From: Verrucomicrobium sp. BvORR034 | Lineage (GTDB): Bacteria; Verrucomicrobiota; Verrucomicrobiia; Verrucomicrobiales; Verrucomicrobiaceae | Assembly: GCF_000739635.1 (NCBI RefSeq) | Contig: NZ_BATQ01000092.1 | Location: forward strand, 1 to 60,641 | Direction of reading: 5' to 3' | Length of the DNA: 60,641 nucleotides | Part shown: piece by piece, positions 5,091 to 60,641 of the stretch | Layout: each line of letters opens with the position of its first letter | Numbering within the stretch: the first letter of the stretch is position 1 | Notes under the pieces: generated by a model | What the model was told of the DNA's origin: nothing | Databases searched by the model: none | The model's input: only the letters and a program-made list of their open reading frames with translations | Position numbers and translations under genes: made by a program

Positions 5091-5162
5091 TTCGACAAGG
5101 TGGGTCCACACTTACGGCTGGTAATCACCTTGTATTGCACGCTGATGCTGTTTCCTCGTGCT

Positions 5163-6452
5163 CTAGGCTAGCAGATGGTTGTACACCGGATTGCTCATCT
5201 GCTCCCCGATCTTCTCTGCGAGGTTGGCGGCTGGAACTTCCATCTGGTCGCGGGTGGCCAGATTTTTCAGCACCACGGTGGGGTATTCACCTCCGATGAT
5301 GGCGGCAAAGCGGGCCTTGGAATTCTCTGCTGCCTGGAACTGCTTGTTCACCTTCTGCGGTGTAAGGCTGTAGTCCACACGCCAGCCCGCGGTGCGAAGC
5401 TGGGTGACGGTCTGGAGGCACTCGCGGCGTCGGGTTTCATCCGCCAACAAGACATAGACGTCCACGGCCACGGACTGGTCCATGTCCCGCTTCATCTGCT
5501 CCTGAGCCGCTGGAGTGGCTTTGATGAGCTCGCCTAGAACAACGTCGCCCATGGCAAAGCCGCAGGCAGACATCTGGACCGCTCCATCGCTGAGGTGGCC
5601 CACGAGGTTGTCGTAGCGGCCACCGCCCGCGATGGCCCGCAGGCCGTGTTTGACGTCGAAGGCTTCGAAGACGGTCCCTGTGTAGTATGCGAGTCCGCGC
5701 ACGATGCCGGGATCGATCTTCACATACTGCCAGAGGTCACGCGCTTCGAGATTCTCCCGAAGCTCTGCAAATATAGGATGGTCGGCGCTGATGCTGCTGA
5801 TAAAGGCTTGAACCTTCTCAAGGCTCATCCCCAGCGCCTCAAGCTTGGTATTGGTGACCTCCGCAGGCGTGCGCTCCATCTTGTCGATGATCTGGAGGAA
5901 CTCGCCGCTCTGGGTTTCATTCAGCTGATAGGTGGCCTGGAACTCGGTCCACAGACGGCGGTCACTGAGACGGATGATGAAATCACCCGGCTCCAGGGCG
6001 AAGGAGCGAAGGCTCTCAATGGCGAGGGCGACAAGCTCAGCGTCGGCAGCAGGGGATGCCTCACCCAGGATGTCCACATTGAACTGGTAGAACTCCCGCA
6101 GACGGCCGCGCTGCTGTCGCTCATAGCGGTAGCAGGGACCGATCTGAAACCACTTGAGGGGCTTGGGGAAATCACGCTGACGGGCTGCCGCCATCCGTGC
6201 CAGGGTAGGAGTGACCTCTGGGCGCATGGAGACCTCCTCCTCACCCTTCGTCGTGAAGCAAAACAGCTGCTGGGTGATTTCGTCCCCGCTCTTCTTCTTC
6301 AGAAGATCCGTGCTCTCCAGCGTCGGGCCTTCATATTCCACGAACCCATGACGCGAGGCGACACTGCGCCAGCGTTTGAAGATGGAGTTACGCAGAGCGC
6401 AGTCTTCAGGGAAGAAATCGCGGAAGCCTTTGACGGTCTTGAAGCCAGACAT
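5163..6452 (-). CDS. hisS: Histidyl-tRNA synthetase
   Basis: 429 aa, normal length for bacterial HisRS, which charges tRNA-His with histidine. Class II motif 2 is seen around FQIGPCYRYERQQRGRLREF. The His-specific motif RGLAYYTGTVFE and motif 3 in GGGRYDNLVG with GFAMGD are intact. A C-terminal anticodon-binding domain (about 330-425) carries YSLTPQKVNKQF and AAIIGGEY. It reads as a stand-alone gene downstream of the GYF-like gene (91 bp gap). Confidence 0.95.
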   Translation of the reverse strand: MSGFKTVKGFRDFFPEDCALRNSIFKRWRSVASRHGFVEYEGPTLESTDLLKKKSGDEITQQLFCFTTKGEEEVSMRPEVTPTLARMAAARQRDFPKPLKWFQIGPCYRYERQQRGRLREFYQFNVDILGEASPAADAELVALAIESLRSFALEPGDFIIRLSDRRLWTEFQATYQLNETQSGEFLQIIDKMERTPAEVTNTKLEALGMSLEKVQAFISSISADHPIFAELRENLEARDLWQYVKIDPGIVRGLAYYTGTVFEAFDVKHGLRAIAGGGRYDNLVGHLSDGAVQMSACGFAMGDVVLGELIKATPAAQEQMKRDMDQSVAVDVYVLLADETRRRECLQTVTQLRTAGWRVDYSLTPQKVNKQFQAAENSKARFAAIIGGEYPTVVLKNLATRDQMEVPAANLAEKIGEQMSNPVYNHLLA

Positions 6453-6543
6453 GGAACCCTACTGATGCAGCAGAGCAGGGGTTCGCGCAAATGGATTGGC
6501 TGCTTTCGACCGATCAAGGGCGGGCGGTGTGTCGATCAAGGGG

Positions 6544-6843
6544 CTAGTCGGCCGGAGTGCTGGCCTTCTTGGCGGCTTTCTTTGCAGGAGTCTTGGCGGC
6601 GGGCTTGGATTCCTTGGCAGGTTTCGCTTCCTTTACCGCCTTCGGCTTGGGGGCCGCCTTTGGGGTGGTGGGCTCTGGAAGGGAGGAAAGGAAGTCGAGA
6701 GAGGGCACCCAGGTGCTGCTGCCGTCTTCACGGATGAAGTCTCCGTCCAAAACAATGCCGCGCTTTTTGAAATCAAGGATCTCTGCGACGGTGAAGGCTC
6801 CGAATTCGGTGAAGTTGCGGCTGAGGTAGACTTGGGTGCTCAT
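6544..6843 (-). CDS. GYF_2-like small protein with Lys/Ala/Pro tail
   Basis: 99 aa from the ATG at 6843 (MSTQVYLSRN). A longer frame reaches 6915, but its first residues look non-coding. Residues about 5-50 (FTEFGAFTVAEILDFKKRG, then GSSTWVPSLDFL) resemble the GYF_2/DUF4339 fold, which normally binds short peptides. The C-terminal half is Ala/Lys/Pro-rich (repeats such as KPAKESKPAAKTPAKKA), basic and probably disordered, able to bind nucleic acid or acidic partners. It sits upstream of hisS and divergent from recF. The function is unknown. Confidence 0.65.
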   Translation of the reverse strand: MSTQVYLSRNFTEFGAFTVAEILDFKKRGIVLDGDFIREDGSSTWVPSLDFLSSLPEPTTPKAAPKPKAVKEAKPAKESKPAAKTPAKKAAKKASTPAD

Positions 6844-7044
6844 GTGATAGGTAGAATGTTTTGGGTTCAGGGGATAGCCCTGAGGTGAGGGAACCCCAAT
6901 CGAACAAATTGTCACTCACTGGGCCTGAATTCGGGCCAGACCACCGCGACGACCGTATTTTTAGCATGTTCCATGCCGAATTGTCTTAGGGAGGGGGAAA
7001 GAGAGCGCTGGACAAGGCCTTTCACCCTCGCATCATCGCTGCAC

Positions 7045-8116
7045 ATGTTGCTGGAGTGGATGCAGGTGCGGGATTTTCGTTGCTTTACGGAAGCGCGTCT
7101 CGTGCTGCATCCTGAGACTACCTTGTTGGTTGGAAAAAAACGGGCAGGGCAAGACCTCGCTGCTGGAGGCGGCGTGTGTGCTGATGCGGTTGCAGTCGCC
7201 CCGCACGTCCACTCGCTCGGACCTGATTCGATTCGGTGCCCAGGCCTGCGTGACGGAGGGCGCGGTAGGGGGGCGCAAGCTGAGAGTGGCCCAGAGCCCG
7301 ACCGCTCGCCGTGTGGCAGTGAATGATTCCGTCTGCCCACGGGCGGGGGACTACTTGATGCAGTCCGCCCGGGTGGTGTGGATGGATCACTCTGATATGA
7401 ACCTCGCCCGGGGAGGGGCTGAACACCGCAGACGCTACCTGGACTTTGCGGCAGCCCAACTCTTCCCGGAATACCTGAATGCCCTCAAGAGCTACGAGCG
7501 GGCTCTCCGAAGCCGGAATTTCCTCTTAAAACGGGATGCAGCCATTTCCTGGCGGCAGGTGGATGCCTATGGTCGCATCCTGGCTGAGCATGGAGCCGTG
7601 ATCCGTCGGTGCCGGGAAGATTTGATCCAGAGGGTCCAAGAGCCGGTCACCGCGGCCCACTTGGGCCTCAGCGCTGGAGCCGAGCCAGGGGCGGTGTCCT
7701 ACCTGCCCGGTTATCCTGGGGAAAATCTGGAGGCAGCCCTGTTGGAAGTACGGGACAGCGAAGCCCGGCTCCGGACCACGCAGGTGGGGGTGCATCGGGA
7801 TGATCTGGCGCTTACGATTCACGGTCGGCCAGCGGGAGCCTTTGCCTCCGAGGGGCAGCAGCGGACACTCTGCCTGGCACTGAAGCTGGCTCAGGCCAGG
7901 GTGCTGGAGGAGGCGCAGGGGGAACCCCCTCTTCTATTGATCGACGATATTTTTGGTGAGCTGGACAAAACCCGGCGCCAGGCCCTCCTTGCCTACCTGC
8001 CAGCGCACGGCCAAAAAGTCATCACCACCACCTTCACGGATTGGGCCAGTGAAACTGGTGTGGGGGGACTGGTGTATGAGGTCGAGGATGGGCAGCTAAA
8101 AGAGCGTGGAATTTGA
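7045..8116 (+). pseudogene. recF: recF with an apparent frameshift in the Walker A region
   Basis: RecF is the SMC-like ATPase that loads RecA at single-strand gaps. The N-terminus MLLEWMQVRDFRCFTEARL (from 7045) and LLVGK lie in one frame. NGQGKTSLLEA and the rest (HRRRYLDFAAAQLFPEY, signature region ASEGQQRTL, Walker B LLLIDDIFGELD) lie in another frame, to the stop at 8116. The break is at a run of seven A (7134-7140). Removing one A gives GKNGQGKTS and a continuous protein of about 356 aa, normal for RecF. A sequencing or assembly homopolymer error is the simplest cause; a true mutation or slippage is possible. Confidence 0.85.
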
Positions 8117-8440
8117 CCCGGGTGAAACGAGATTTTTGGCTGTGTCGGCAAAAAAGGCCCTTCTTTTACAAGACCGTGGATTCCGCTTGCAAACCAAAGA
8201 GGGAGAACGATAGGCGGGGGGAAAATTCGTCGCGCAATCCCGTTGCCTGTAGTGGTATCCGCCCTGGAAATCTTTCCCTTGACGAAAATTAGCAGGGTTT
8301 TTTACTTGAAGGTCAACGGTTTGGAATTGGGCGTGGTTTTCATTTCCTGATTTTTCGCTTTTCTTTGATATCTTTCTCTCAAGCTCACGCCTGACTGCCG
8401 TTTTTTCGCTCTTTTCCACCCTTTCCATTTCAACAACCTC
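8117..8440 (+). promoter_or_regulatory. mreB upstream region
   Basis: 324 bp, relatively A+T-rich, between recF and mreB, with no supported gene. TTGACG at 8279-8284 could be a -35 box for the mre cluster, but the matching -10 (TTACTT near 8302) is weak. The region probably contains the promoter and a long 5' leader for the mreBCD-mrdA-rng operon. Confidence 0.35.
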
Positions 8441-9472
8441 ATGTCGTTTTTCAGAAGCTTATTCGGATTTGCATCCAGTGACATTGGCATCGACCTCGGC
8501 ACCGCCAACACCCTCGTGTATGTGAAGGATCACGGCATTGTGCTACGTGAACCTTCCGTGGTAGCAGTGAAAGCGGGCACCAACGAAGTGGTGGCCGTAG
8601 GAGATGACGCCAAGCGCATGCTGGGACGCACTCCCGGAAACATTGTGGCCATCCGTCCTCTGAAGGATGGGGTCATTGCCGATTTCAAGGTGACGGAGGC
8701 CATGCTTCGTCACTTCATTCTGAAGGTTCACAATCGTCGTAGCTTCGTGCGTCCGCGCGTGGTGGTGGCGGTCCCGTCCGGCATCACTGAGGTGGAGAAG
8801 CGTGCCGTCAAGGAGAGCGCTGAGCAAGCTGGTGCCCGTGAAGTTTATCTGATTGAAGAACCGATGGCAGCGGCCATCGGCGTGGGCCTGCCCGTGCAAG
8901 AGGCTGCTGGCAACATGATTGTGGACATCGGTGGGGGCACCACCGAGGTGGCGATCATCTCGCTGAGCGGTATCGTGTACAGCCGCAGCGTCCGTGTGGC
9001 GGGTGACGAGCTGGATGAAGCCGTGATCAACTACATGAAGCGTGCGTATAACCTCATGATCGGTGAGCGCACGGCGGAAGAAATCAAACTTCGCATCGGA
9101 TCGGCCTACCCGCTGGGCAAGGAGACGACGATGGAAGTAAAGGGCCGTGACATGGTGGCAGGTCTGCCGAAGACGATCACCATCACGAGCCAGGAAGTTC
9201 GCGAGGCCATGTTGGAGCCTCTGAACACGATCATTGATGCGGTGCGCACGACGCTGGAGCGCTGCCCCCCTGAACTCTCCGCCGACCTGGTGGACCGCGG
9301 CATCATGCTGGCGGGTGGCGGTGCCTTGCTGCGCGGCCTCGACAAGCTTCTGCAGGAAGAGACGGCTCTCCCGGTCCATGTGGCCGACGACCCGCTCAGC
9401 GCTGTGGCGGAAGGTGCAGGCCGGGTGCTGAGCGAGATTGAGTTTCTCCGCAAAGTCAGCACCAACGAATAG
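8441..9472 (+). CDS. mreB: Rod-shape-determining protein MreB
   Basis: 343 aa bacterial actin that forms membrane-associated filaments guiding lateral wall synthesis. The N-terminus carries the amphipathic start [13 protein letters not shown]. Actin-fold nucleotide motifs follow: [13 protein letters not shown] (phosphate 1), [16 protein letters not shown] (phosphate 2) and [14 protein letters not shown] (adenosine motif). Length is normal. It starts a plus-strand cluster with mreC, mreD, mrdA and rng, the usual elongasome arrangement. Confidence 0.97.
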
Positions 9473-9559
9473 GCGGTCATGGATACCAATGGTCAGACCC
9501 GTGAGCGCTGAGATTTCAGCGTTCCCGGGCTGGCGGCTTTACAGGGGAGTGCTGCAAGC

Positions 9560-10375
9560 ATGAAGAAGATCAACGTCATCGCCCTGCTGCTCTTTTTCGT
9601 GGCGCTGGTGGCAGTGTTCACGCTCAAGACCCCGCAGACGCGGGCGATCCAAACCTCCGTGATGAATGTGCTCTCGCCCTTCATCCGGATGGGCGCTCAT
9701 GCCCAGAACCAGGTGCATGAGGTGGTGAGCAATCCTGTGGATGCCGCTCGGCTCCAGCAGGAGAATGAGAGCCTGCGCCGGGAGATGAACCGACTGATGA
9801 TCTTCGAGCAGAAGTACCACATGACGCTTGAGGAGAACAACAAGTTCCGCTCGATGCTTGGGTATCGGCAGCAGTCCGCCTTCAAGTTGACCGCTGCCCA
9901 TGTGCTGCGCCGCTCCGCCTCCAACTGGTGGACGACGGTGATCATCGACAAGGGCTCGCTGGATGGCATCGGCACGGACAGCCCTGTCATCACCGAGTCA
10001 GGCTTGGTGGGCAAAACCGGAAAAGTGGCGGCTCACACCTCAGAGGTGATCCTTCTCACAGATGAAGAGTGCCGCGTGGCGGCTCGAATCGAGGGCACGC
10101 AGGCCAAGGGGATTCTCAGCGGCGAGCGTGGAGGATTCGAGACGCGTCCGGATTTGCGCCTGCGGTTTCTGGACCGAACCCTCAAGCTTGAGCCTGGGGC
10201 CAATATTTATTCTTCCGGCGACGGCGGCGTGTTTCCCGCAGGGCTGGCGCTTGGCAAGGTGAAGGCGTTTGAATTCAAAGACATTTCTGGTGAGGCAGTG
10301 GTGGATCCCGCTGTGAATTTCGGCCTCATCGAAGACGTCTTTGTTGTCCACATGGATTCGCTCGTGCAACCATGA
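9560..10375 (+). CDS. mreC: Rod-shape-determining protein MreC
   Basis: 271 aa bitopic membrane protein. One N-terminal transmembrane helix (about 5-24) is followed by a coiled coil (about 55-95, EENESLRREMNRLMIFEQKY region) and a periplasmic beta domain containing DKGSLDGIGTDSPVITESGL, GKTGKV and SSGDGGVFPAGLALGKV. It links MreB filaments to penicillin-binding proteins. It follows mreB by 87 bp and overlaps mreD by 4 bp (ATGA at 10372-10375). Confidence 0.93.
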   Translation: MKKINVIALLLFFVALVAVFTLKTPQTRAIQTSVMNVLSPFIRMGAHAQNQVHEVVSNPVDAARLQQENESLRREMNRLMIFEQKYHMTLEENNKFRSMLGYRQQSAFKLTAAHVLRRSASNWWTTVIIDKGSLDGIGTDSPVITESGLVGKTGKVAAHTSEVILLTDEECRVAARIEGTQAKGILSGERGGFETRPDLRLRFLDRTLKLEPGANIYSSGDGGVFPAGLALGKVKAFEFKDISGEAVVDPAVNFGLIEDVFVVHMDSLVQP

Positions 10376-10998
10376 GTTTCTTGTACAACATCATCGTGGT
10401 GCTGCTCGTGGCCCTGAGCTTTGGGGCGCAGGAGTTTTTGCCAGCCATTGAGTTTGCCAACCACGCCCGGGTGCTGCTGCCACCTGTGCTGTTTTTCTCT
10501 GCCTCCCTGACGGTGTCATTTCCGATGATGCTGTTCCTGGCGCTCTTCACCGGACTGGTTTGGGACGCCCGGCACCTGCCATACAAGCCGGAGAAACCGG
10601 TCGCGGTGGAGTCGGCGGACCTGGCCAGGGAACTGCCCGTGGAAAAGCAGCCTCCCACTGGGACGGCGCTGCCGGTTGGATACTCTATGTTTCTTTTTGG
10701 CGTCACTGGCACGCTCATGCAGGGCATCCGGCCGCTTTTTAAACGGGGGCGGTGGGAGTTGCCGGTCATCATGGTTGGCATTGCCACGCTCCTGTGTCTT
10801 CTGATAGAGTTTTTAATGATGTCATTCCTGAGGGGCAGTTTTGAATTCCATCCCGGCCTGTGGACGAAGCTGGTGACGGATGCACTGCTGGCCATGTTGG
10901 TCTCACCGCTCCTTCTGTTCATGCTTCATACGCTTGCGCGACTCGTCCACTATGAGGTGCGGACAGAAGGGCTAGTTTACCGATTCTATGGTGGTTAA
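10372..10998 (+). CDS. mreD: MreD-like integral membrane protein
   Basis: 208 aa, with four to five hydrophobic segments and a Pro/Glu-rich cytoplasmic loop (about 63-100). MreD diverges strongly between phyla, so the call rests mainly on position: it lies between mreC (4-bp overlap) and the PBP2 gene (11-bp overlap), with a size and membrane topology that fit MreD. It would be the membrane component of the elongasome scaffold. Confidence 0.7.
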   Translation: MSFLYNIIVVLLVALSFGAQEFLPAIEFANHARVLLPPVLFFSASLTVSFPMMLFLALFTGLVWDARHLPYKPEKPVAVESADLARELPVEKQPPTGTALPVGYSMFLFGVTGTLMQGIRPLFKRGRWELPVIMVGIATLLCLLIEFLMMSFLRGSFEFHPGLWTKLVTDALLAMLVSPLLLFMLHTLARLVHYEVRTEGLVYRFYGG

Positions 10999-13201
10999 GT
11001 ATCGCTTCCGTCTGTACCTCTTTACCTTGGTGATCCTGATTGGATTCGGTGCGCTGGCTCAGCGCCTGTGGAATCTCAGCATCGACCACCACGAAGAACT
11101 CAAGAACAAGGTTCCAGGAACCAAAAACCTGCGGGCGCGTATTCCGGGCTCGCGAGGGGAGATCCGTGACCGGAACGGAGTGGTGCTGGTTTCCAACAAG
11201 CCCTCGTTCGAGGTGCGTGTGAACCTGAAGACGCTGGTCGAGGAGTACACCAAGCAGGCGAAGGCGGAAAAGCGTGATGTGCCGCTTTTCACTTACAAAT
11301 ATACTGAAGGTGGCGTTCCCCGGAGCAAGGAGGAGACGGACATTGTTGCCATCGTCAATGAAGGCATCATTGAGCCGCTCAACAAATTGGGACTCGCAGC
11401 AGACTTCAATGCGAAGAAGTTGCGCATCCACTACCGTACGAATCGCGGGGTGGTTCCTTGGGTGTACCGCAGTGACCTGACCTTTGAGGAGTTCAGCCGA
11501 TTTGCAGAGCATCGTCTGGGCCTGCCGGGTATCTCGGTGGAAGTGCGTCCGGTGCGCCAGTATCTTTTTGACTCCTTTGCCTGCCATGTCCTTGGCTATG
11601 TGAACCAGCCGGATGTGCAGCAAGCTTCAAAGGAAGAGATCAATGAGTGGGACTTCTTCGTGCCGGACGACTACGGCGTGTATGGCGTGGAGAAGACTTT
11701 CGACCAGGACCTGCGGGGCAAGGCGGGGATGCGCATCTGGCTGCAGAACGAAAAAGGCCGTCTCGTCAAGGAGGTGGACTATCAGGAGCCGCGCAAGGGG
11801 CATGACGTTTATCTCTCGATTGATGCACGGATTCAGATGATCGCGGAGAAGGCTTTGCGCGAAGGTGCGCCGGCGATCGGCCGAGGTGCTGTGGTGGTGC
11901 TGGATCCGTCCACTGGCCAGGTGATGGCCATGGCGTCCGTACCTTCCTATAACCCGAACAAGTTCATCCCCTCCATCAGCAAGGATGACTTTGCCGGTTA
12001 TCTGGAGAATCCCTGTGTGCCGTTGTTGAACCGTTCTGTGCGCGGTTTCGTGCCAGGCTCCACCTACAAGATCATGACCTCGTTTGCCGGCATTTTGGCG
12101 GGTGTGGAAGGGGACATGGTCAACTGCCCGGGCGGGATTCAGTTTGGTGGTAAGTTCATGAAATGCTGGATCGGCCAGAAGGGCGGCGCCCACGGCACGC
12201 TGGGACTGAGTGAGGCCATCATGCGCTCGTGCAACTGCTACTTCTACCGCTACGCCAACCACGCTGGCAACGCAGCGATGACCAAGGCTGGCGACATGTT
12301 CGGCCTGGGACAGCGCACCGGCATCGAGCTGGAAGAAGAGGCACCGGGCATCCTGCCTGTGGAGCGCTGGTGGCGCGTGAACAAGACCGCGGCAGAACGT
12401 TTCTCCGAGGCCAGCATCGCGAACATGGCGATCGGTCAGGGCGCGGTGGAGGCCAGTCCGCTACAGATGGCAGGCGTAGCCGCAGCCGTGGGCAACGGCG
12501 GCATTGCGTACCGTCCGCACCTGCTGAACAAGGTGATGGATGGCACGGAGCTCATTCGCGAGCAGGTTCCGGACGTGCGTGCGAATTTCAAGGACTTCGG
12601 TCTCACGCCCCAGAAGCTGGAACTGGTGCGGCGTGGCATGTGGCGCGTGGTGAATGACCAGGGGGGCACGGCCAAGGCCGCCAAGATCACCGGTGTGGAT
12701 GTGGCCGGGAAGACGGGCACCGCCCAGAACTGGCGCAAGAACGGAAAGGAATTTGTAAAAGACAACCACACGCTCTTCATCACCTTCGCCCCGTACGAGA
12801 ATCCCAAGTTTGCCGCCTGCATCCTCGTGCAGGGGGGCAAAGGCGGTGGGGTGACGGCCGCTCCCGTGGCCAAACGCATTTTGGAACAGGCCCTGGCACT
12901 CGACAAAGGTTACGAAGTCGAGCTCGCCAAGGTCAATGAAGTGCAGGGCAACTTCAACCCTGTAGACACTGTCTCATACGATGGACTCCCCACTGCGTTC
13001 CAGCCAGGAACGGAGGAAGAGGAGCCTGCCGTGGACAACGATGACGAACCGCGTCGCAGTGCGAAGCGTGAGGAGGCTCCGAAGGCGCGTCCCACCATTC
13101 GCGATGAAGCTGACGCGGAAGGAACGAAGCAAAACAAGAATCAAGCACCCCCACCACGCCGGGCCAACTTCCTGAAGAGATTGTTCGGGAGGGATGGTTA
13201 G
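10988..13201 (+). CDS. mrdA: Penicillin-binding protein 2, elongasome transpeptidase
   Basis: 737 aa. One transmembrane helix (about 8-26) is followed by the pedestal/dimerisation domain (RGEIRDRNGVVLVSN) and the transpeptidase domain with SxxK at S358-K361 (GSTYK), SxN at S414-N416 (SCN) and KTG at K575-G577 (KTGTAQ). It cross-links peptidoglycan during side-wall elongation. The C-terminal ~80 residues are acidic, then basic and Pro-rich (about 660-737), longer than usual and probably disordered. rodA, the usual partner glycosyltransferase, does not follow; rng does. Confidence 0.93.
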   Translation: MVVKYRFRLYLFTLVILIGFGALAQRLWNLSIDHHEELKNKVPGTKNLRARIPGSRGEIRDRNGVVLVSNKPSFEVRVNLKTLVEEYTKQAKAEKRDVPLFTYKYTEGGVPRSKEETDIVAIVNEGIIEPLNKLGLAADFNAKKLRIHYRTNRGVVPWVYRSDLTFEEFSRFAEHRLGLPGISVEVRPVRQYLFDSFACHVLGYVNQPDVQQASKEEINEWDFFVPDDYGVYGVEKTFDQDLRGKAGMRIWLQNEKGRLVKEVDYQEPRKGHDVYLSIDARIQMIAEKALREGAPAIGRGAVVVLDPSTGQVMAMASVPSYNPNKFIPSISKDDFAGYLENPCVPLLNRSVRGFVPGSTYKIMTSFAGILAGVEGDMVNCPGGIQFGGKFMKCWIGQKGGAHGTLGLSEAIMRSCNCYFYRYANHAGNAAMTKAGDMFGLGQRTGIELEEEAPGILPVERWWRVNKTAAERFSEASIANMAIGQGAVEASPLQMAGVAAAVGNGGIAYRPHLLNKVMDGTELIREQVPDVRANFKDFGLTPQKLELVRRGMWRVVNDQGGTAKAAKITGVDVAGKTGTAQNWRKNGKEFVKDNHTLFITFAPYENPKFAACILVQGGKGGGVTAAPVAKRILEQALALDKGYEVELAKVNEVQGNFNPVDTVSYDGLPTAFQPGTEEEEPAVDNDDEPRRSAKREEAPKARPTIRDEADAEGTKQNKNQAPPPRRANFLKRLFGRDG

Positions 13202-13239
13202 CCTTGTGGGCTCAACTTTAGCAATTTACGATCAATTTT

Positions 13240-14829
13240 ATGGCTTTGGGATTTGTGCAAAGAATTAAGGAGTTTTTCACCGGACACAAAGATGTGAACA
13301 GCGGAACGCGAATTGTCATCAACTGTGAAAAGCTCGAGAACCGGGTCGCCCTGCTTGAGAGCGGAGTGCTCGAGGAGTACTCTGTCGAACGTGTGGGCAC
13401 CACCCACCTGGTGGGCAGCATCTACAAGGGACGCATCAAGAACATTGAGCAGGGCTTGAAGGCCATGTTCATTGATATTGGTCTTGAGAAAAATGCCTTC
13501 CTCCATTTCTGGGATGCCATTCCCGCGGCACTTGATGCTGGCATGGAGGAGATCAACCGCGGCGGCAGCGGCAAGAAGAAGAAGGCCATCACGGCCAAGG
13601 ACATTCCTGATCTGTACCCGGTGGGTTCTGAGATCCTGGTGCAGGTGACCAAGGGGCCAGTCGGTAACAAGGGGCCACGTGTGACCACGAACATCTCCCT
13701 GGCGGGACGTCTTCTGGTGCTCATGCCTTTGAACGATTCCTGTGGTATTTCCCGCAAGATTGACGATCCCAAGGAGCGCCTCCGTCTTCGCCGCATCATT
13801 GAAAAGCTGAGCCTCCCCGAAGGCATGGGCGTCATCTTGCGCACGGAAGCTTCCGGCAAGCGGGCCCGCCACATTATCCGGGACCTGAGCATCCTCGTGG
13901 AGCAGTGGAAGGACATCGCGGAGCGCCGTGACACGCAGAAGGCCCCGGTGTGCTGCTTTGAAGAGCCGGATGTGTTTGAGCGCACCGTGCGCGACTTCCT
14001 CACGGAGGATCTGGATGAAATCGTCTGCGATGATCAGGCTGTGGTGCAGCGGATGAAGGAACTGGTGGCTCCTATCTCGCGTCGTGCCCAGCGCCGGATC
14101 AATTATTTCCCAGGACCTGGCTCTCTGTTTGAGAAGTACCACATCCAAAGGCAGATCGATTCCGCGTTCTACCGTCAGGTCTGGCTCAAGTGTGGTGGTT
14201 ACATTGTCATCGACCAGACGGAGGCTCTTATCTCCATTGACGTGAACACGGGCCGCAACAAGGGTGCCGGGAACAACGTGGACAAGGTGATCCTGGACAC
14301 GAATATGGAGGCCGCCGCTGAGGTGGCCCGCCAGCTCCGGCTGCGCAACATGGGCGGTCTGGTGGTGGTGGACTTCATCGATATGAAGGGCCGCAAGGAC
14401 CAGCAGGCGGTGTACAAGGCAATGGTCGATCACACCCAGCGGGATAAGGCAAAGACGCAAATCCTGCCGATTTCCCAGTTCGGTCTGATGGAGATGACCC
14501 GCCAGCGCCTCCACGAGAGCCTGAGCGACGCCATGTATGAAGAGTGCCCGCACTGCAAAGGTCACGGCCAGATCAAGACGCCGCTGACGATGAGCGTGGA
14601 GCTCCAGCGCCGGCTGTCCTCCATCATGTCCCGTCTGCCTGAGCATGATCGCGACGTGCTCGTGGTCATCCACCCGGATGTGATGCAGCGTCTGCGCACT
14701 TCAGATGATCAGATCCTGGTCGAACTGGAGCGCAAGTACCAGGCCCGCATGACCTTCCGTACGGATCCGAATTACACCCGGGAACAGTTCTTGATCGCCA
14801 ACGCCAAGACTGGCGACGAGATCAAGTAG
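13240..14829 (+). CDS. rng: Ribonuclease G/E family endoribonuclease
   Basis: 529 aa, the size of RNase G; it lacks the long C-terminal scaffold of RNase E. An S1 RNA-binding domain (about 35-160: GSIYKGRIKNIEQGLKAMFI) has a Lys-rich insertion at 112-115. The catalytic DNase I-like region has metal ligands D334 (SIDVNTG) and D378 (VVVDFIDM). The Zn-link CPHC is at 436-439. RNase G processes the 16S rRNA 5' end and degrades mRNA. It sits 38 bp after mrdA and ends the cluster, as rng often does near mre genes. Confidence 0.93.
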   Translation: MALGFVQRIKEFFTGHKDVNSGTRIVINCEKLENRVALLESGVLEEYSVERVGTTHLVGSIYKGRIKNIEQGLKAMFIDIGLEKNAFLHFWDAIPAALDAGMEEINRGGSGKKKKAITAKDIPDLYPVGSEILVQVTKGPVGNKGPRVTTNISLAGRLLVLMPLNDSCGISRKIDDPKERLRLRRIIEKLSLPEGMGVILRTEASGKRARHIIRDLSILVEQWKDIAERRDTQKAPVCCFEEPDVFERTVRDFLTEDLDEIVCDDQAVVQRMKELVAPISRRAQRRINYFPGPGSLFEKYHIQRQIDSAFYRQVWLKCGGYIVIDQTEALISIDVNTGRNKGAGNNVDKVILDTNMEAAAEVARQLRLRNMGGLVVVDFIDMKGRKDQQAVYKAMVDHTQRDKAKTQILPISQFGLMEMTRQRLHESLSDAMYEECPHCKGHGQIKTPLTMSVELQRRLSSIMSRLPEHDRDVLVVIHPDVMQRLRTSDDQILVELERKYQARMTFRTDPNYTREQFLIANAKTGDEIK

Positions 14830-17945: not shown

Positions 17946-18857
17946 TCATTTCCCACCCAGGCGTTCGTGAGTAGCCTTGGCAATGTCTGGCTGCTTGTTG
18001 AGCGACCTCTGGAAATAACGTCGGATGGTGTCCAGCCGTATTTGTTCGGACGTGGGCAAAAGGTCTTCGGCAAAATTGGCCAGATCGTTATGTTGTGGCT
18101 TCAGTGAGGTCTGGCCCGGAGTGCGTTTAGCTTTGGCCGCTGCCGTGGAGGGCTGGCCACCAAAGACGTCCTGAACATGGAGCATCCATGCTTCCGTGCC
18201 ATCGGCGGAGAAAACATACCAGGAGGCGACTTGGGCGGGTGCGACCTTCTGCTCCAGCACCCGACGCTCGGCCAGGAAGACGGGATGTTTCTCCACGTCC
18301 CATACCTTGTCTCGCAGTACGCCTACCTCCAGCTCGGTGCCATTCCAGCGAAGGCGGGAAGGCTTGAGATTGCGATCGTCTTCTTCAGAATCCCAGACTT
18401 GCCCCACGATGTCTGCCGGGAAGTTCTTGATCGGCTTGGGGGTGTAGCCTTTGGCCAGCTTGTACGCCAGTTCACCCACGACCGTGGTAGGAGTGACGTA
18501 CTTGAGATCATCGCTGAAGAAATACCATGCGGTGTTCGGTCCCGAGAAGTTGAGCCGCACCACCCCTACATCGACGAAGGCGCTGTCATAGGGGGCGTTG
18601 GCGCGTCCATTTGGGTTGAGTGACACCATGCCTTCACCAGTGTATTGGAGGCGCTTGAGCGTGTTGGTACCGCGTAGTTCCCAAATGGTGCCTTTGATGC
18701 TGCCGGCAAATTTGTCCACCTCAGGATAGGCTGTTTTCGGTTCACTGTCTGCGGCGGGCGCTTGTGCCAGGGCCCGCGGGGTCCCGAAGGTCGCTGCCAG
18801 TGCGAGGCTACAGCCGAGGAGCGGGGAGGCAACGCCGGAGAAACTTAAGAACGTCAT
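17946..18857 (-). CDS. Secreted protein of unknown function
   Basis: 303 aa. A signal peptide spans about residues 1-31 (ending RALAQA). I do not recognise a named domain. Visible features are two similar halves, each with a short all-beta stretch on the theme GTIWELRGTNTLKRLQYTG / GQVWDSEEDDRNLKPSRLRW and FYNFS-like aromatic strands (NTAWYFFSDD, ASWYVFSADGTEAWML), suggesting an internal duplication. The C-terminus is helical (about 250-303). It lies upstream of the sulfatase on the same strand and may share its transcript. Confidence 0.7.
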   Translation of the reverse strand: MTFLSFSGVASPLLGCSLALAATFGTPRALAQAPAADSEPKTAYPEVDKFAGSIKGTIWELRGTNTLKRLQYTGEGMVSLNPNGRANAPYDSAFVDVGVVRLNFSGPNTAWYFFSDDLKYVTPTTVVGELAYKLAKGYTPKPIKNFPADIVGQVWDSEEDDRNLKPSRLRWNGTELEVGVLRDKVWDVEKHPVFLAERRVLEQKVAPAQVASWYVFSADGTEAWMLHVQDVFGGQPSTAAAKAKRTPGQTSLKPQHNDLANFAEDLLPTSEQIRLDTIRRYFQRSLNKQPDIAKATHERLGGK

Positions 18858-50208: not shown

Positions 50209-51510
50209 TTATCCCTCTTCCCTTACCCCTTGACCCTCTAACTGCCGCTTCCTCTCTGCCTCCAACGCGGCCTTCTCCGCTGCCATGGCCGCGAGGGAAG
50301 CGGCGCGACGAACCTTTTCTTTTGCTTCCTGTTCGGCACGAATCTTGGCAGCAGCGGCTTCGCGCTTGGCACGAGCTTCTTCCTCCACCAGACGGGCGGC
50401 TTCGGCCTCGGCGGCCTGCTTGGCTTTCAGGGCCGCGTTCGCAGCTTTCAAGGCTTCGACTTCCAGACGGGCCTGTTCACGCTCGAACTCGCGGGCGGCC
50501 TCCCGTTCGGCCTTGGCCTTTTCCGCTGCTTCCAGTTTGGCAATGCGCTCGGCTTCCCTTTCTGCCTGAAGGCGGGCTTTTTCAGCGGCGGCCTGTTCTC
50601 TCGCGGCCTCTTTTTCAGCTTGGAGCCTGGCTTTCTCCTCGGCCGCGGCAGCGGCCGCTTGCTCTTTGGCAAGGCGGGCTGCTTCCTTCTCCTCCAGAAG
50701 CCGGATCCTCTCCACGGCCTTCTCGGCATCGGCCTGTTCTTTGGCCAGCTTGGCGGCGGCTTTCTCGGCTTCCGCTTGCTCCTTGGCCGCTTGCTTCTCC
50801 GCTGCGATGCGGGCTTTCTCTTCTGCGGCTGCGACAGCCGCTTGTTCCTTGGCAAGACGGGCGGCTTCCTTCTCTTCCTGAATCCGCGCTTTCTCCGCTT
50901 CCCGCTCGGCTGCGGCCTGTTCCTTTGCGGCGATCATTTCCGCGAGACGACGAGCTCGTTCGGCTGCCATTTCGGCCGCGGCTTGTTCTTTGGCGATACG
51001 TGCTGCTGCCAGTTCTGCCAGGAGCTTCACTTTCTCCGCCTCTCTTTCGGCGGCCGCCTGTTCCTTGGCCAGTTGTGCGGCTTCCTTCTCGGCCTGGATA
51101 CGGGCTTTCTCAGCCTCCTTCTCCGCCGCGGCCTGGGCTTTGGCTGCTTCGCGTTCGGCTGCCAGTCGGGCCTTCTCGGCCGCTGCTGCTGCGGCTGCCT
51201 CTTCCTTGGCGATCCGGGCCGCTTCTTTCTCAGCCAGCAGACGGGCTTTCTCTGCCTCCCGGGCCGCAGCTTCTTCCTCTTTGGCCTGAAGGGCTGCCAC
51301 CTTGGCTGCCAGTTCCGCCGAGACCTTGGCCTCCTGGGCTTCCACAAGGGTCGTGGCGAACTCACGAAGCTGCTGGGCCAGATCGACCGCCGTTTCTTGC
51401 AGGGCAGGGGCCGCCTCCGTCAGCACGCGAGGCCAGATTTCCAGCGTTTCCAGCTTGGCAGCGGTGTCAGTGAGGAGGGCGGTAAATTTCGGGTCGAGTC
51501 GGGTGGTCAT
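50209..51510 (-). CDS. Long Ala/Glu/Lys/Arg-rich helical protein
   Basis: 433 aa from the ATG at 51510 (MTTRLDPKFTALLTDTA). About 70 N-terminal residues look like an ordinary helical domain; from about residue 80 to 430 the protein is a nearly unbroken run of Ala, Glu, Lys, Arg and Gln in degenerate units such as AEKEAARIAKEEAAA and AEREAEKARIQEEKE. The i to i+4 Glu/Lys(Arg) pattern and absence of Pro/Gly predict a single stable helix or coiled coil about 50 nm long, comparable to TolA domain II. No signal peptide, so probably cytoplasmic. Function unknown. Confidence 0.75.
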   Translation of the reverse strand: MTTRLDPKFTALLTDTAAKLETLEIWPRVLTEAAPALQETAVDLAQQLREFATTLVEAQEAKVSAELAAKVAALQAKEEEAAAREAEKARLLAEKEAARIAKEEAAAAAAAEKARLAAEREAAKAQAAAEKEAEKARIQAEKEAAQLAKEQAAAEREAEKVKLLAELAAARIAKEQAAAEMAAERARRLAEMIAAKEQAAAEREAEKARIQEEKEAARLAKEQAAVAAAEEKARIAAEKQAAKEQAEAEKAAAKLAKEQADAEKAVERIRLLEEKEAARLAKEQAAAAAAEEKARLQAEKEAAREQAAAEKARLQAEREAERIAKLEAAEKAKAEREAAREFEREQARLEVEALKAANAALKAKQAAEAEAARLVEEEARAKREAAAAKIRAEQEAKEKVRRAASLAAMAAEKAALEAERKRQLEGQGVREEG

Positions 51511-51711
51511 CGCTAGGTGCAGAAAGGAAGAAATGGGGGTGGGGAACAGGAATGATTGGAGACGGATGGGGCGCTGTAAAGTCCGTTCATTCGGCACTGA
51601 CACTGATCATCGGACGGGGCAACGAAGCGCGTCTCTGTGTTGTTGACTTGATCATTGACAACTTGCCATGGTGCCGTCCTGATTGCGGTAGCTTCAATTT
51701 CTCGTGTTCTC

Positions 51712-56666: not shown

Positions 56667-56719
56667 CTGCAGCATTTGCTCGTGATTTTCGTGCGCCTTT
56701 ACTTCAAGTTGCTTCCAAA

Positions 56720-57370
56720 ATGACTGAGTCTAATACAAGTTGCATTCCAAGGCTATTGGAGATATGTTCGAATCAGGGGAGTTTTCTCCAAATTGCTGGT
56801 AGCGAAGTAGGCATTGGAGCTGTATTGTACGCTCGCTGTGGTGAGCAAGTGCTGTTTGTCCAAAAGGCTGAAAAGCAGGGGTATGAGTTCTCTAACATGC
56901 TTGCATTGCCAGGAGGAATGGTGCGCATCGTTCCTGGACAGACAATTTCAGACGAGACAATATTAGATGCACTTTGCGATCGCGTAAGTCAAGAGACGGG
57001 TTTCATGCCCAATAAGTCAAGATGCAGACCATTCCCGGTTCCCGGGTGCATTTCGCGGTACACCGCTAAAAATGTATTACGTTATGCTTTTGTGATTCCT
57101 TATCTGATTGATGTAGACGAGACGACCGAAGTGAGCCCGGGCCACGCCAGCGTCTCCACCGCAAAGTGGATGGACCCGACTGCTGCCTTGTCGTCTTGCG
57201 CTCCAGTAAACTGTGTCATTGTCTCGGGTGTGCTTAAGAGATTGCTCTCGAAACCGCATGATGAGAGGGTGCGCCAGGCGGAAGAAGCGGCTCGCGCTAA
57301 GTGTAAGGAATTTCTCAAAGGTGTGCACGTCCCTGAAATGGCGCGTTTCTTAGTTCAGGATCAATTGTGA
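56720..57370 (+). CDS. Degenerate Nudix-fold protein upstream of the RT
   Basis: 216 aa. Residues 29-95 look like a Nudix fold: EVGIGAVLYARCGEQVLFVQ, LALPGGMVRIVPGQ, and CDRVSQETGF in place of the REUxEExGU helix. The Nudix-box Arg and two of its acidic metal ligands appear replaced, although one Glu is kept, so hydrolysis of a nucleoside diphosphate may be weak or lost. The C-terminal part (about 160-216) is helical. It opens the low-G+C block, 79 bp before the reverse transcriptase gene on the same strand, and may be part of that system as a nucleotide-binding regulator. Confidence 0.7.
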   Translation: MTESNTSCIPRLLEICSNQGSFLQIAGSEVGIGAVLYARCGEQVLFVQKAEKQGYEFSNMLALPGGMVRIVPGQTISDETILDALCDRVSQETGFMPNKSRCRPFPVPGCISRYTAKNVLRYAFVIPYLIDVDETTEVSPGHASVSTAKWMDPTAALSSCAPVNCVIVSGVLKRLLSKPHDERVRQAEEAARAKCKEFLKGVHVPEMARFLVQDQL

Positions 57371-57449
57371 AAATGGCATGTTATTTGTCGTCGTGTCAAG
57401 GTTTTGTGCCTAAAGCATCATATTCATCAACGAATTAACAAGCAAGTTC

Positions 57450-59384
57450 ATGGAAATTGACTTTGTCAGCGTAGCCTATAGGAAGCTAAAGCAAATGGTT
57501 TACTATGACAGGACGCATCTACATCTAAGGCAAACCCTTGCTGAGTTTGAATGTGGGCATGATGTTTTGGATCGTCTCGGAATGTTGGGTGACTTGCTTC
57601 AAGTAGAAGACCCGACTAAAGACCGACGATTTAAGAACTGGCTGGGGAAGATAAATTATGTGTTGACTCCAAAAGCAGTGAGAAAAAATGCTCACGATAG
57701 TGTTAAAGGTGGCACATTTGTAAGTAATGTTACCACTGACTCGAAATATGAAATTGATAGAGTGAATTTCATATTCGATGGACCTATTGAGCTTCATCTG
57801 ATTGCTGTTCTCTGGATTATGTTTGAGGGGCATAAGCTGGATAACAGGCTGCCGCGATACTGCAATGGCTCTCGTCTCAATAGTGTTGTTGGCAATGACG
57901 ATGACAGGTCTGCCCTGCTGTTTAAGAAATACCATGAACTATATAGTCAATGGCGGGATATGGGTGTCAACAAGGCGAGGGAAATGCTCATTAACGAGGA
58001 GCGCAGTGTTTGCATCATTTCTCTAGATTTTCAAGAGTTCTACTATCGGATTGAGTTGAATTGGTCGCAATTAAAGGATGCGATTGATCGTCCGATGGTC
58101 GAAAACGAGATTGACGAATATCTCTATGGACGGGAAATGCTCGGGGGAAAGCTCTTAGGCTGCCTTGAAGCGATATGCAAGGCATACAAGAAGTCAATCC
58201 AAAGTGCATTGTCTGAAACCCATGTCTTGCCTCCGACTGCGACCTGCTTGCCTATTGGCCTATGCTCATCACCGATAATAGCCAATTGGTATTTGGCGGG
58301 TTTTGATGAAGACGTCATGTCTAATGTTAGACCTGCTTACTACGGGAGGTATGTGGATGACATACTGCTCGTTGTTGCAAGCGATAATATGAACGGGGCG
58401 GATCCAGTTCGAGATTTTATGGACCAAGTTATGGAGAAATCTGGAGTGATGCGATGGTCTGAAGACTTGAATGGGTACCAGATTAGTAGGCTGCCTTGCA
58501 TCTTTCTCCAAAAGAGTAAATGCGTGCTGCAATATTTTGATGCCAGTCATTCAATCGGCGGTCTAGAAAAATTCAAGAAACAGTTGGAAGCAAATGCAAG
58601 TTCCTTTGCGCTCTTGCCGGTCGATGGAGAAGATAACTCGATAGAGCAAGTGGCCTACGACTTGCTGTACGATGGGTCTGAGAATAAGCTTAGGAACGTA
58701 AAGGATATTGGTGAAAGCAAATGGGAATTGGCGCAGTATTTGGCTAAGCAAACCCAAATGCATCTTGTTGCAGGTCAAGGTCCGCGAAAGAGTATGGAGG
58801 AGGAGCTGAGGCGCTTTTTCAAGGGTCGCAACGCCATAGAGTATTGGGATATGTGGGAGCGTGTTTTGTCACTCTTTGTCGTTTCAGGTAGACTTGATTT
58901 AGTTGATGCGTTTTATGGCGATGTGAAAATGGAAATTGGAAAGGTTGAAGCGATCGGAGGCGGTGCCACCAGAAGGGTCAAGGATTTCCTCAGAGAACAC
59001 CTTGACATAGCTAGGAAATTGTCATTGTCGTTGAAAGTCAGGCAAGATTCAATTAAGTATGTGGAGGGGGATATCTGGAGGCACTCCAACATGTTGCGGC
59101 ATCACTTGGTGATGATTCCTTTGTTAAATTACACGAATTTTGAAGGAGACTTTACTCGTGGAGTTGGGGTTGGGCGCGTGAAGCTGGTAGGGCACAAGGT
59201 GGAGTTTAGTCCTAGATATGTACATTTTGACGAGTGCCTCAGTTTTGTGGAGTCACTTCACTGGCTGCGACGTCAAGTTGATTCGATCACAGCCGCCAAC
59301 GAGATATATGCAAAGTTCTATGGAAGCGCTAGTCAAGACGTTAATCTCAAGGTCGTGAAAGGAGGCGAGGAGTCTGAGAAATGA
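57450..59384 (+). CDS. Defence-associated (UG/DRT-type) reverse transcriptase
   Basis: 644 aa. RT motifs: A in IISLDFQEFYYRI (D193), B in LPIGLCSSPIIANWY (267-281), C in YGRYVDDILLVV (YVDD, 301-304). The three catalytic aspartates (D193, D303, D304) are intact, so DNA synthesis is expected. It lacks a group II intron maturase/endonuclease domain, and no retron msr/msd is seen. Residues about 380-644 are an all-helical extension without a recognised domain. The stop overlaps the ATG of the nitrilase-like gene (ATGA, 59381-59384). This pairing points to the nitrilase-linked UG class (UG1/DRT1 and relatives), known phage-defence RTs; there the two are usually fused. Confidence 0.88.
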   Translation: MEIDFVSVAYRKLKQMVYYDRTHLHLRQTLAEFECGHDVLDRLGMLGDLLQVEDPTKDRRFKNWLGKINYVLTPKAVRKNAHDSVKGGTFVSNVTTDSKYEIDRVNFIFDGPIELHLIAVLWIMFEGHKLDNRLPRYCNGSRLNSVVGNDDDRSALLFKKYHELYSQWRDMGVNKAREMLINEERSVCIISLDFQEFYYRIELNWSQLKDAIDRPMVENEIDEYLYGREMLGGKLLGCLEAICKAYKKSIQSALSETHVLPPTATCLPIGLCSSPIIANWYLAGFDEDVMSNVRPAYYGRYVDDILLVVASDNMNGADPVRDFMDQVMEKSGVMRWSEDLNGYQISRLPCIFLQKSKCVLQYFDASHSIGGLEKFKKQLEANASSFALLPVDGEDNSIEQVAYDLLYDGSENKLRNVKDIGESKWELAQYLAKQTQMHLVAGQGPRKSMEEELRRFFKGRNAIEYWDMWERVLSLFVVSGRLDLVDAFYGDVKMEIGKVEAIGGGATRRVKDFLREHLDIARKLSLSLKVRQDSIKYVEGDIWRHSNMLRHHLVMIPLLNYTNFEGDFTRGVGVGRVKLVGHKVEFSPRYVHFDECLSFVESLHWLRRQVDSITAANEIYAKFYGSASQDVNLKVVKGGEESEK

Positions 59385-60316
59385 AACCTTATTCAATTAT
59401 CTCCATTGGTGACAAAGGTGGCGCTGACCTTCATGGTGCCTTGCAAATAGCCATTGCGCACATGAAAGTCTTTGAGGAAGATATAAAAGTTAGCTATCTG
59501 AAGAAGCCAAATACCTCGGTTTCGCGCTTGCTCAGAATCTCGCGAATATTAAATGATGTAGTGCGACATGGTGTTCGCAATCCTGAGAATAGGGTGCAAC
59601 TTCTAGTATTGCCTGAAGTTTCAGTGCCTCATGCATTCGCTGCGTTTCTGACGCGCTGGGCGAGGGAGCATCAAATCGGGATTATTTGTGGATTGGAGCA
59701 TAGGGTTGATGGTCGCGGCTTCGCGTGGAATCAACTGCTTGCTGCTCTGCCGTACCGGGCTGGGAATGGTAGGAAGTCCTGCCTACCAATTCGCAGATTG
59801 AAACAGCATTACGCGCCAGAAGAAAGGTTCATACTTGAGAATAATGGCCTGAAGGTTCCGACTTCTTCCGAGCACAGCAGATACCAGTTGTTCCGATGGA
59901 GGGGCGCAAGTTTTGCGGTGTATAATTGTTATGAACTGGCTAGTTTGGAGGATAGATCAATATTTAAAGGGAGAGTGGACTTTATCGTCTGTTCTGAGTT
60001 CAACGCCGACGTAAATTACTTTGCAAACATAGTGACGTCGGCTGCGCGTGATTTGCACTGCTATGTTGTGCAAGTTAATAGCTCCCACTTCGGTGACTCC
60101 CGTGTGGTGAGTCCTTCAAGAACGGAGAAGCTGACCCCCCTCCATATAAAGGGGGGGGACAATCAGACATTTTTGACAATGAAACTCGCTTTAAAAGAGT
60201 TGCGCGACCATCAGCGCTTGGGATATGGCTTGCAAAAAGACTCCAAAGACTTCAAATGTACTCCTCCGGGCTTTAACGTCGCCAGTGTCGAAGAGAGAAT
60301 CGGCTTGGGCGGGTGA
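59381..60316 (+). CDS. Nitrilase-fold protein paired with the RT
   Basis: 311 aa carbon-nitrogen hydrolase fold with an intact triad: E79 in LLVLPEVSVP, K141 in RRLKQHYAPEERF, and nucleophile C183 in AVYNCYELA. FIVCSEFNADVNYFANIV and VVQVNSSHFGDS match nitrilase core strands. Nitrilases act on nitrile or amide C-N bonds; in nitrilase-linked RT systems the domain is needed for defence but its substrate is unknown. Translation is coupled to the RT gene. A C6 / G8 pair (60135-60140; 60151-60158) inside the gene can form a hairpin, and G8 in such an A+T-rich gene is a slippage-prone tract near residue 258. Confidence 0.85.
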   Translation: MKPYSIISIGDKGGADLHGALQIAIAHMKVFEEDIKVSYLKKPNTSVSRLLRISRILNDVVRHGVRNPENRVQLLVLPEVSVPHAFAAFLTRWAREHQIGIICGLEHRVDGRGFAWNQLLAALPYRAGNGRKSCLPIRRLKQHYAPEERFILENNGLKVPTSSEHSRYQLFRWRGASFAVYNCYELASLEDRSIFKGRVDFIVCSEFNADVNYFANIVTSAARDLHCYVVQVNSSHFGDSRVVSPSRTEKLTPLHIKGGDNQTFLTMKLALKELRDHQRLGYGLQKDSKDFKCTPPGFNVASVEERIGLGG

Positions 60317-60641
60317 ACTTTGAAAGTAGCGAGTACAGGCTCCGAACGGACTATCCATCGGATTCGCAAATCGTGTAGATCCTCCTAAAAAAGATGTAGG
60401 AATGGATCCCTCAACGTATGTAGCGAGGAATGTGTTCGCCTAGTCTTTCCAGGGCAGTAGTGCTGGCGAAAACTGATCTTCGTTTCTGTGGAGGTTACAG
60501 AGGCTTTGCTGCTCTCAGCGATGTTTTGTTTCCCGGATCTCGCCGCTTGCACCATTTGATCAATGGTGCGGTCTCCGTGTCACCGGGCACTTCAAAACCG
60601 GCCACCGATGGGCGGAATAGACCGGCCAGGCAAATCTACAG
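60317..60641. other. Downstream region of the RT system with two hairpins
   Basis: 325 bp to the window end without a supported ORF. GATCCTCCTA..TAGGA-AT-GGATC (60378-60408) forms a stem with a 2-nt bulge; GCACCATT-TGATC-AATGGTGC (60549-60569) is a perfect 8-bp stem. Neither is followed by a U-tract. GAGTACAGGCT at about 60329 resembles the 27-bp repeat in reverse. A non-coding RNA template for the RT, or the right boundary of the transferred block, are possibilities only. Confidence 0.4.

Follow-up and report, generated by a model that had tools for sequence, protein, structure and literature searches.

A UG5-small reverse transcriptase–nitrilase pair and an upstream Nudix-like gene in a low-GC island of Verrucomicrobium sp. 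BvORR034

The question raised by a 60,641 nt contig of Verrucomicrobium sp. BvORR034 (NZ_BATQ01000092.1, the whole of which is called the window here) is to which system a reverse transcriptase (RT) gene and a nitrilase gene near its end belong, and whether a Nudix-like gene just upstream is part of that system. All three genes lie on the plus strand. The Nudix-like gene (56720–57370) encodes 216 aa with a degenerate Nudix box and a marginal match to Pfam NUDIX (PF00293), the RT gene (57450–59384) encodes 644 aa, and the gene for a stand-alone nitrilase-fold protein, the putative effector (59381–60316, 311 aa), starts within the RT stop in an ATGA overlap. The first-pass annotation had placed the genes at these coordinates, with RT and nitrilase coupled by ATGA and the Nudix-like gene 79 bp upstream on the same strand, and the list of open reading frames (ORFs) bears this out, the 79 bp being a gap without overlap. 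It had also read the locus as a split-gene, possibly undescribed variant of the UG1/DRT1 class with an added nucleotide-handling component. The explanation preferred here, which concerns the RT–nitrilase part only, is that the pair is quite probably a UG5-small (class 3) defence-associated reverse transcriptase (DRT) cassette acting by abortive infection and one of the interchangeable cargoes of a chromosomal defence hotspot.

The RT scores 856 bits (E 4e-258) against the PADLOC profile RT_UG5_small, with residues 3–635 aligned to positions 5–627 of 631, a full-length match. The other PADLOC scores are 393 bits for RT_UG5-nitrilase and, among the best 25 of 61 matches, 46.5 bits for the best profile outside UG5. 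Judged by profile scores, and not by a tree, the RT is thus classified as UG5-small, within class 3 of the UG/Abi RTs. In Pfam it exceeds the RVT_1 cut-off of 29.6 with 35.1 bits. The YVDD motif, reported as intact in the first-pass annotation, is present at residues 301–304; D303 and D304 are invariant across seven aligned RTs and align with D324 and D325 of DRT1, the structure of which (9yfd) is the best PDB match of the RT (E 0.0046 with the single sequence, E 3e-9 with a profile). An identity with UG1/DRT1 itself was rejected, as the RT reaches only 41.6 bits against Drt1a and as RT and nitrilase are two ORFs rather than one chain. What survives of the earlier class assignment is a nitrilase-linked class 3 UG/Abi RT with DRT1 as its best solved relative; the family is UG5-small. 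Likewise, the C-terminal part of the RT (approximately 380–644), described earlier as lacking a recognised domain, has no separate named Pfam domain, yet it lies inside the full-length RT_UG5_small profile. A structure prediction of the RT from four sequences has a mean predicted local distance difference test score (pLDDT) of 36.2, and no weight is given to the largely helical C-terminal half that this model shows.

Two PADLOC profiles match the nitrilase, RT_UG5-nitrilase with its C-terminal part (E 5e-93) and the separate-gene profile RTasNitrilase (E 1.7e-36); in Pfam it lies just below the CN_hydrolase cut-off (22.2 against 23.2). These matches to RT-associated nitrilase profiles speak against an ordinary metabolic enzyme. 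The intact Glu-Lys-Cys triad noticed earlier corresponds to E79, K141 and C183, invariant in six aligned nitrilases. The sole PDB match listed for this protein is again DRT1 9yfd, weak with the single sequence (E 0.38) and clearer with a profile (E 3.3e-4), and C183 aligns with DRT1 C1116. On the fused UG5 profile PDLC03780 (907 positions) the RT covers positions 22–597 and the nitrilase 636–895; since they cover successive parts, the two window proteins represent one fused architecture split in two. The ATGA overlap between RT and nitrilase is found in all six complete copies identified here, the window copy included. Because the RT matches RT_UG5_small and the nitrilase matches RTasNitrilase, the split layout is, by these profile matches, one already catalogued in PADLOC (PDLC03781 and PDLC03804), with the same full-length RT, separate nitrilase and ATGA coupling. 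The earlier description of a split-gene system therefore stands, but not the suggestion that it is undescribed.

The same two domains, in the same order, make up the UG5-large fusion (RT_UG5-nitrilase; E. coli WP_000222103.1), to which the window nitrilase is 26 % identical over 296 aligned positions and the window RT 29 % over 328. The fusion differs in being one chain and, in the excerpts of PMC9122126 consulted, in being paired with a transmembrane protein, whereas the window has a Nudix-like gene instead. Those excerpts treat a UG5 RT with a C-terminal nitrilase and a partner with one transmembrane segment as a validated antiphage system (PMC9122126, 2022), and a further source, also consulted as excerpts, gives 50 % as the share of UG5 cases with an adjacent or fused nitrilase (PMC8934634, 2021). 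A plasmid search with the window RT returned five records, at 25–28 % identity over 48–57 % of the query. On one E. coli plasmid (NZ_CP146678.1, locus positions 7965–11174), WP_000222103.1 (1069 aa) is annotated as ‘hypothetical protein’ and is a full-length fused UG5 RT-nitrilase (PDLC03780, 1034 bits).

Among solved structures DRT1 (9yfd) comes closest to both window proteins, and its RT and nitrilase catalytic residues match theirs, but it is a single chain of 1229 residues, while the window has two proteins. In Gao et al. 2020, DRT type 5 reportedly denotes UG16, and it should not be mixed with the ‘DRT5’ of Neville et al. discussed here. In the excerpts of the latter work, mutation of DRT1 at D324/D325 or C1116 abolishes defence, DRT1 synthesises DNA by protein priming, and purified DRT5S and DRT5L make template-free DNA covalently bound to protein (Neville et al. 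2026, PMC13275509). The ‘DRT5S’ of that study is apparently UG5-small, an equation that rests on its class 3 membership and its S and L forms, the word UG5 not occurring in those excerpts (PMC13275509).

By analogy with DRT1 and with purified DRT5S/L, the window RT would make template-free DNA covalently joined to itself. The DNA-bearing RT assembly would gather the separately encoded nitrilase subunits and keep them in check, until a phage replication factor frees the nitrilase. The freed nitrilase may then attack an essential small molecule or make a toxic product, and the infected cell would stop or die before phage release. Recruitment of the nitrilase in trans is proposed because the RT and nitrilase of the window are separate proteins which, by homology, would otherwise work alike. 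The Nudix-like protein, which has lost most of its catalytic glutamates, would, if active at all, work by binding a ligand or a protein and not by nucleotide hydrolysis. An RT–nitrilase complex in trans, defence by this locus and any role of the Nudix-like protein are all inferred here.

Relatives of the pair were sought in two ways. A pattern scan of genome contigs gave loci in a Sideroxydans metagenome-assembled genome (MAG; L003), in Pseudomonas aestuarii (L004) and in a Verrucomicrobiaceae MAG (L005); a search with the UG5_small profile added two complete loci (L014 and L015) and one partial locus at a contig edge (L016), which is left out of the count of five complete relatives. Duplicate loci of the window or of counted relatives (L001, L006, L007–L010, L018–L020, L023, L030 and L035) were set aside, as were other RTs or chance matches (L002, 28 bits to RVT_1; L021, 19.6 bits to UG5; L034, 27.1 bits to UG5). 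The window copy is 46–51 % identical to the five complete relatives in the RT and 62–67 % in the nitrilase. The partial locus carries a UG5-type RT of 455 aa (positions 33–1400) at the contig edge, the C-terminal half of which is missing or changed, with a large methylase and a helicase, by eye, as neighbours; a nitrilase was not found in its shorter locus (L010). Few genomes match the UG5_small profile: 4 of 387 in the phylum of the window, its own genome included; only the Pseudomonas relative among 398 of its phylum; and 2 of 384 from the class of the window (its own genome and one already found), the sets of 387 and 384 overlapping. The UG5-small family is therefore rare.

In four of the five complete relatives the pair is nested in a type I restriction locus, preceded by hsdS, the stop of which overlaps the start of the RT gene, and followed by hsdR (L003, 4347–11700; L005, 6724–14058; L014, 1284–10602, minus strand; L015, 3421–10689, minus strand). 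HSDR_N supports HsdR in all four, and Methylase_S is over its cut-off in three, the Sideroxydans locus reaching 18.6 bits against a cut-off of 22. HsdM (N6_Mtase) is encoded upstream in L005, L014 and L015, and the Sideroxydans locus has a YhcG-type nuclease gene upstream of HsdS. The L014 locus additionally has a Schlafen/AlbA_2 gene (4416–5879) after the nitrilase and before hsdR, and a helicase-like gene separates its HsdM and HsdS. No hsd operon was seen around the Pseudomonas pair (ORFs of 5500–12500) or in the window. The window copy is set apart by its upstream Nudix-like gene and, from the four nested relatives, by having no type I restriction–modification (RM) locus around it.

PrrC of EcoprrI, a type Ic locus, is an abortive-infection effector in the hsdS–hsdR slot, where it serves as an anticodon nuclease. 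To our knowledge, and without a comparison of the sequences, it is unrelated to the UG5-small pair; the slot is what it has in common with the four nested relatives, the window copy being outside an hsd locus. Because their nesting resembles that of PrrC, UG5-small pairs may, by analogy, be guards of restriction complexes. No report of hsd nesting of UG5 pairs was among the literature matches listed, which do not cover the paper defining the three classes.

The three window genes lie in a low-GC island (56668–60450, no strand assigned) that starts just past a DUF4328 gene and whose two edges are approximate. In 500-base windows the GC content is 43–50 % in the island and 55–67 % in the preceding 8.5 kb. 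GC at third codon positions is 0.49, 0.49 and 0.51 for the Nudix-like, RT and nitrilase genes, against 0.72–0.88 in 9 of the 11 resident genes listed; the exceptions are a clp-like gene (0.576) and the DUF4328 gene (0.569), the latter read out of frame as its length is not a multiple of three. The codon usage of the Nudix-like gene is nearer to that of the RT and nitrilase genes together (distance 0.139) than to that of resident genes (0.228). None of 500 equal-length resident stretches came as near to the pair (lowest difference −0.004, against −0.088), although this comparison used eight hand-picked resident genes, seven of them among the 11 listed and the eighth at 17946–18857, and overlapping controls drawn from those same reference genes, which favours nearness to that reference, so that it is supporting only and not a probability.

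A genome of the same genus (G1045) is syntenic with the window through a transporter gene and most of DUF4328, at 81–89 % identity in four blocks. After DUF4328 it carries instead genes for an OLD/Gabija-like ATPase, an unassigned protein, a HEPN protein and a GmrSD_N/NsnA-like protein, followed by thiC (locus positions 8532–13942), and no UG5-small RT was found in it (27 bits only). Because other defence genes occupy the site in that genome, the interval between DUF4328 and thiC looks like a chromosomal defence hotspot with the three window genes as exchanged cargo. Composition, codon usage and the comparison with this genome together suggest that the Nudix-like gene arrived with the RT–nitrilase pair. 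Shared composition of this kind speaks of shared foreign origin or common arrival, not of common function.

The right border of the island is only partly visible, the contig apparently stopping at 60641, 325 bp beyond the nitrilase gene; the source assembly comprises 8.58 Mb in 200 contigs. The last ~64 bases of the contig (60577–60641) have two identical copies in the same-genus genome, and shorter inverted ones lie nearby; this terminal repeat may be the cause of the contig end. Farther upstream in the window, positions 50209–51603 encode a long Ala/Glu/Lys-rich repetitive protein of 464 aa, and the opposite strand of the same DNA also has long open frames. Scanning the window against Rfam with gathering thresholds gave no non-coding RNA, and no further search for one was made, class 3 DRTs being described as template-free. 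Promoter- and terminator-like sites were not commoner in a scan than in shuffled sequence.

Several points weigh against the preferred explanation of the locus. Contact between RT and nitrilase in trans is a candidate interaction, the RT and Nudix models having mean pLDDT values of 36.2 and 36.5. Published defence tests, in the excerpts consulted, are of DRT1 and of a fused UG5 rather than of a split UG5-small pair. The priming serine S402 of DRT1 is, in the excerpts of PMC13275509, not conserved in other class 3 DRTs, and would thus be no guide to priming in UG5; downstream of YVDD, the residues S384, Y403 and Y407 are invariant across the seven aligned RTs. As regards the Nudix-like gene, a search of eight genomes (that of the window, six other UG5-small carriers and the same-genus genome) with a two-row profile found it in its own genome only; that it was not found in the six other carriers, among them the 86 % complete genome of the partial locus (G320), and its 79 bp distance from the RT mean that it may be a passenger.

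Other searches for the Nudix-like gene agree. No homologue lies beside the five complete relatives, as examined by tblastn (L003–L005 and the short loci of L014 and L015) and by ORF listing, and a pattern scan gave no ORF with a Nudix box in L003–L005 or L014–L016. The protein is found in 1 of the 387 genomes of the phylum, namely its own. In the 398 genomes around the Pseudomonas relative there is one weak match (E 1.3e-4) with two internal stops, set aside as probable chance (3000 of 3441 locus bases viewed). Viral contigs searched for the Nudix-like protein, the nitrilase and the RT, and with the two-row Nudix alignment, gave no confirmed relative, the exact short-peptide patterns used finding close relatives only, and phages searched with the RT and with the Nudix-like protein gave none. 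Two Sphingobium plasmids do carry a distant homologue (31 % identity, E 3e-6, query residues 32–177); its NUDIX score of 15.5 bits is under the cut-off and its box is also degenerate. The Sphingobium homologue (locus positions 7660–8618) overlaps an upstream ORF of 85 aa without a known Pfam family, and the two are perhaps a small two-gene plasmid unit; other neighbours give only weak matches, all under their cut-offs.

Three alternatives for the Nudix-like gene have to be weighed; they exclude one another, concern this gene only and are each compatible with the preferred explanation of the pair. The first, which on balance is marginally favoured, holds that UG5-small is a two-gene system and that the Nudix-like gene is an unrelated passenger in the same island. 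A general Nudix partnership is disfavoured because the gene is not conserved beside the relatives, and the passenger reading also draws on the gap to the RT and on the Sphingobium plasmid NZ_CP005085.1, the one of the two searched, in which no UG5-small RT was found. Set against it are the composition and codon usage shared with the pair, which bear on foreign origin only, and the position of the gene directly before the pair on the same strand, no further gene being seen in the island. The gap also holds no terminator-like site, a weak point in view of the shuffled-sequence comparison. The first-pass annotation had named this gene as an added nucleotide-handling component and had counted its absence beside all close RT homologues, together with an ordinary metabolic nitrilase, as refuting; the first of these came out as stated, the second did not. 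The proposal is only half supported: the gene does share the composition of the island and belongs to the segment in which the window and the same-genus genome diverge, but it was not found in the six other carriers and its catalytic motif is broken, as set out below.

The second alternative is a three-gene system in which a Nudix-like pseudoenzyme serves the RT–nitrilase as sensor or safety lock, a part that RM subunits may play in the hsd-nested relatives. This appears rather unlikely. It would account for a window copy that, unlike four of the five complete relatives, lies outside an hsdS–hsdR interval, and for a Nudix-like gene and a pair that look like one cargo; accessory partners are moreover known for nitrilase DRTs, drt1b being found beside ~18 % of drt1 and a one-transmembrane gene beside fused UG5. 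It draws, however, on a single locus, and the Pseudomonas pair, over the ORFs listed, likewise has no RM locus around it, in a genome with no Nudix match. Literature searches for Nudix with DRT or nitrilase found nothing among the sources seen, in part as excerpts; one paper on Nudix, retrons and RTs places Nudix in a different type of conflict system, and papers speak of ‘phosphohydrolase’ partners for class 3 RTs without giving a family, a word that could include a Nudix. Broader still, and a shade more doubtful, is a UG5-small subtype in which the Nudix pseudoenzyme replaces the RM complex as trigger or lock, the nested pairs being guard effectors in the PrrC position of type I RM loci and the window pair a free one with another regulator.

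The third alternative, that the protein is an active hydrolase providing or clearing a nucleotide for the RT, is very improbable. In its favour the protein passes the Pfam NUDIX cut-off, if marginally (22.6 bits, cut-off 21.1, E 1.2e-4). No match was obtained in PADLOC, NCBIfam, PHROGs or PDB, a profile search of PDB gave matches at E 0.2 that were taken as chance, and the structure prediction with mean pLDDT 36.5 was made from the single sequence. Against a working enzyme stands the motif. The canonical Nudix box is GX5EX7REUXEEXGU; the window protein reads GGMVRIVPGQ...DRVSQETGF, and neither a canonical nor a relaxed box pattern matches, so that an active Nudix hydrolase was rejected as a candidate. 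Read by eye against MutT numbering, the positions of E44, R52, E53 and E56 are Q, D, R and Q, with E57 kept; of the four glutamates with a metal or catalytic role three are thus replaced, as is the arginine, and the Sphingobium homologue is degenerate too. Because the catalytic motif is broken, nucleotide hydrolysis is unlikely, and the Nudix-like protein is probably not an ordinary hydrolase. The fold named in the first-pass annotation is therefore retained at marginal strength, and the protein is either a passenger or possibly a ligand-binding, locus-specific regulator.

Finally, an origin of the RT in a retron, a group II intron or the like, with the nitrilase as a metabolic neighbour, deserves practically no credit, as the weak matches to the NCBIfam models for the retron St85 RT (35.3 bits, cut-off 235) and the group II RT (24.4 bits, cut-off 300) fall far under their cut-offs and the UG5_small score refutes this reading, which also removes the objection that the first-pass annotation had itself named.

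With the RT–nitrilase pair taken as a UG5-small cassette, the window offers a new, somewhat unusual copy of a rare, already recognised antiphage gene pair, and possibly a three-gene variant of it. Unlike in the fused DRT1, the RT and nitrilase are separate and can be purified, mutated and mixed apart. The nesting between hsdS and hsdR in the relatives suggests a guard hypothesis, in which inhibition of the RM complex sets off the RT and nitrilase. The Nudix-like protein, if functional, would be a type of partner for a DRT without a known published counterpart.

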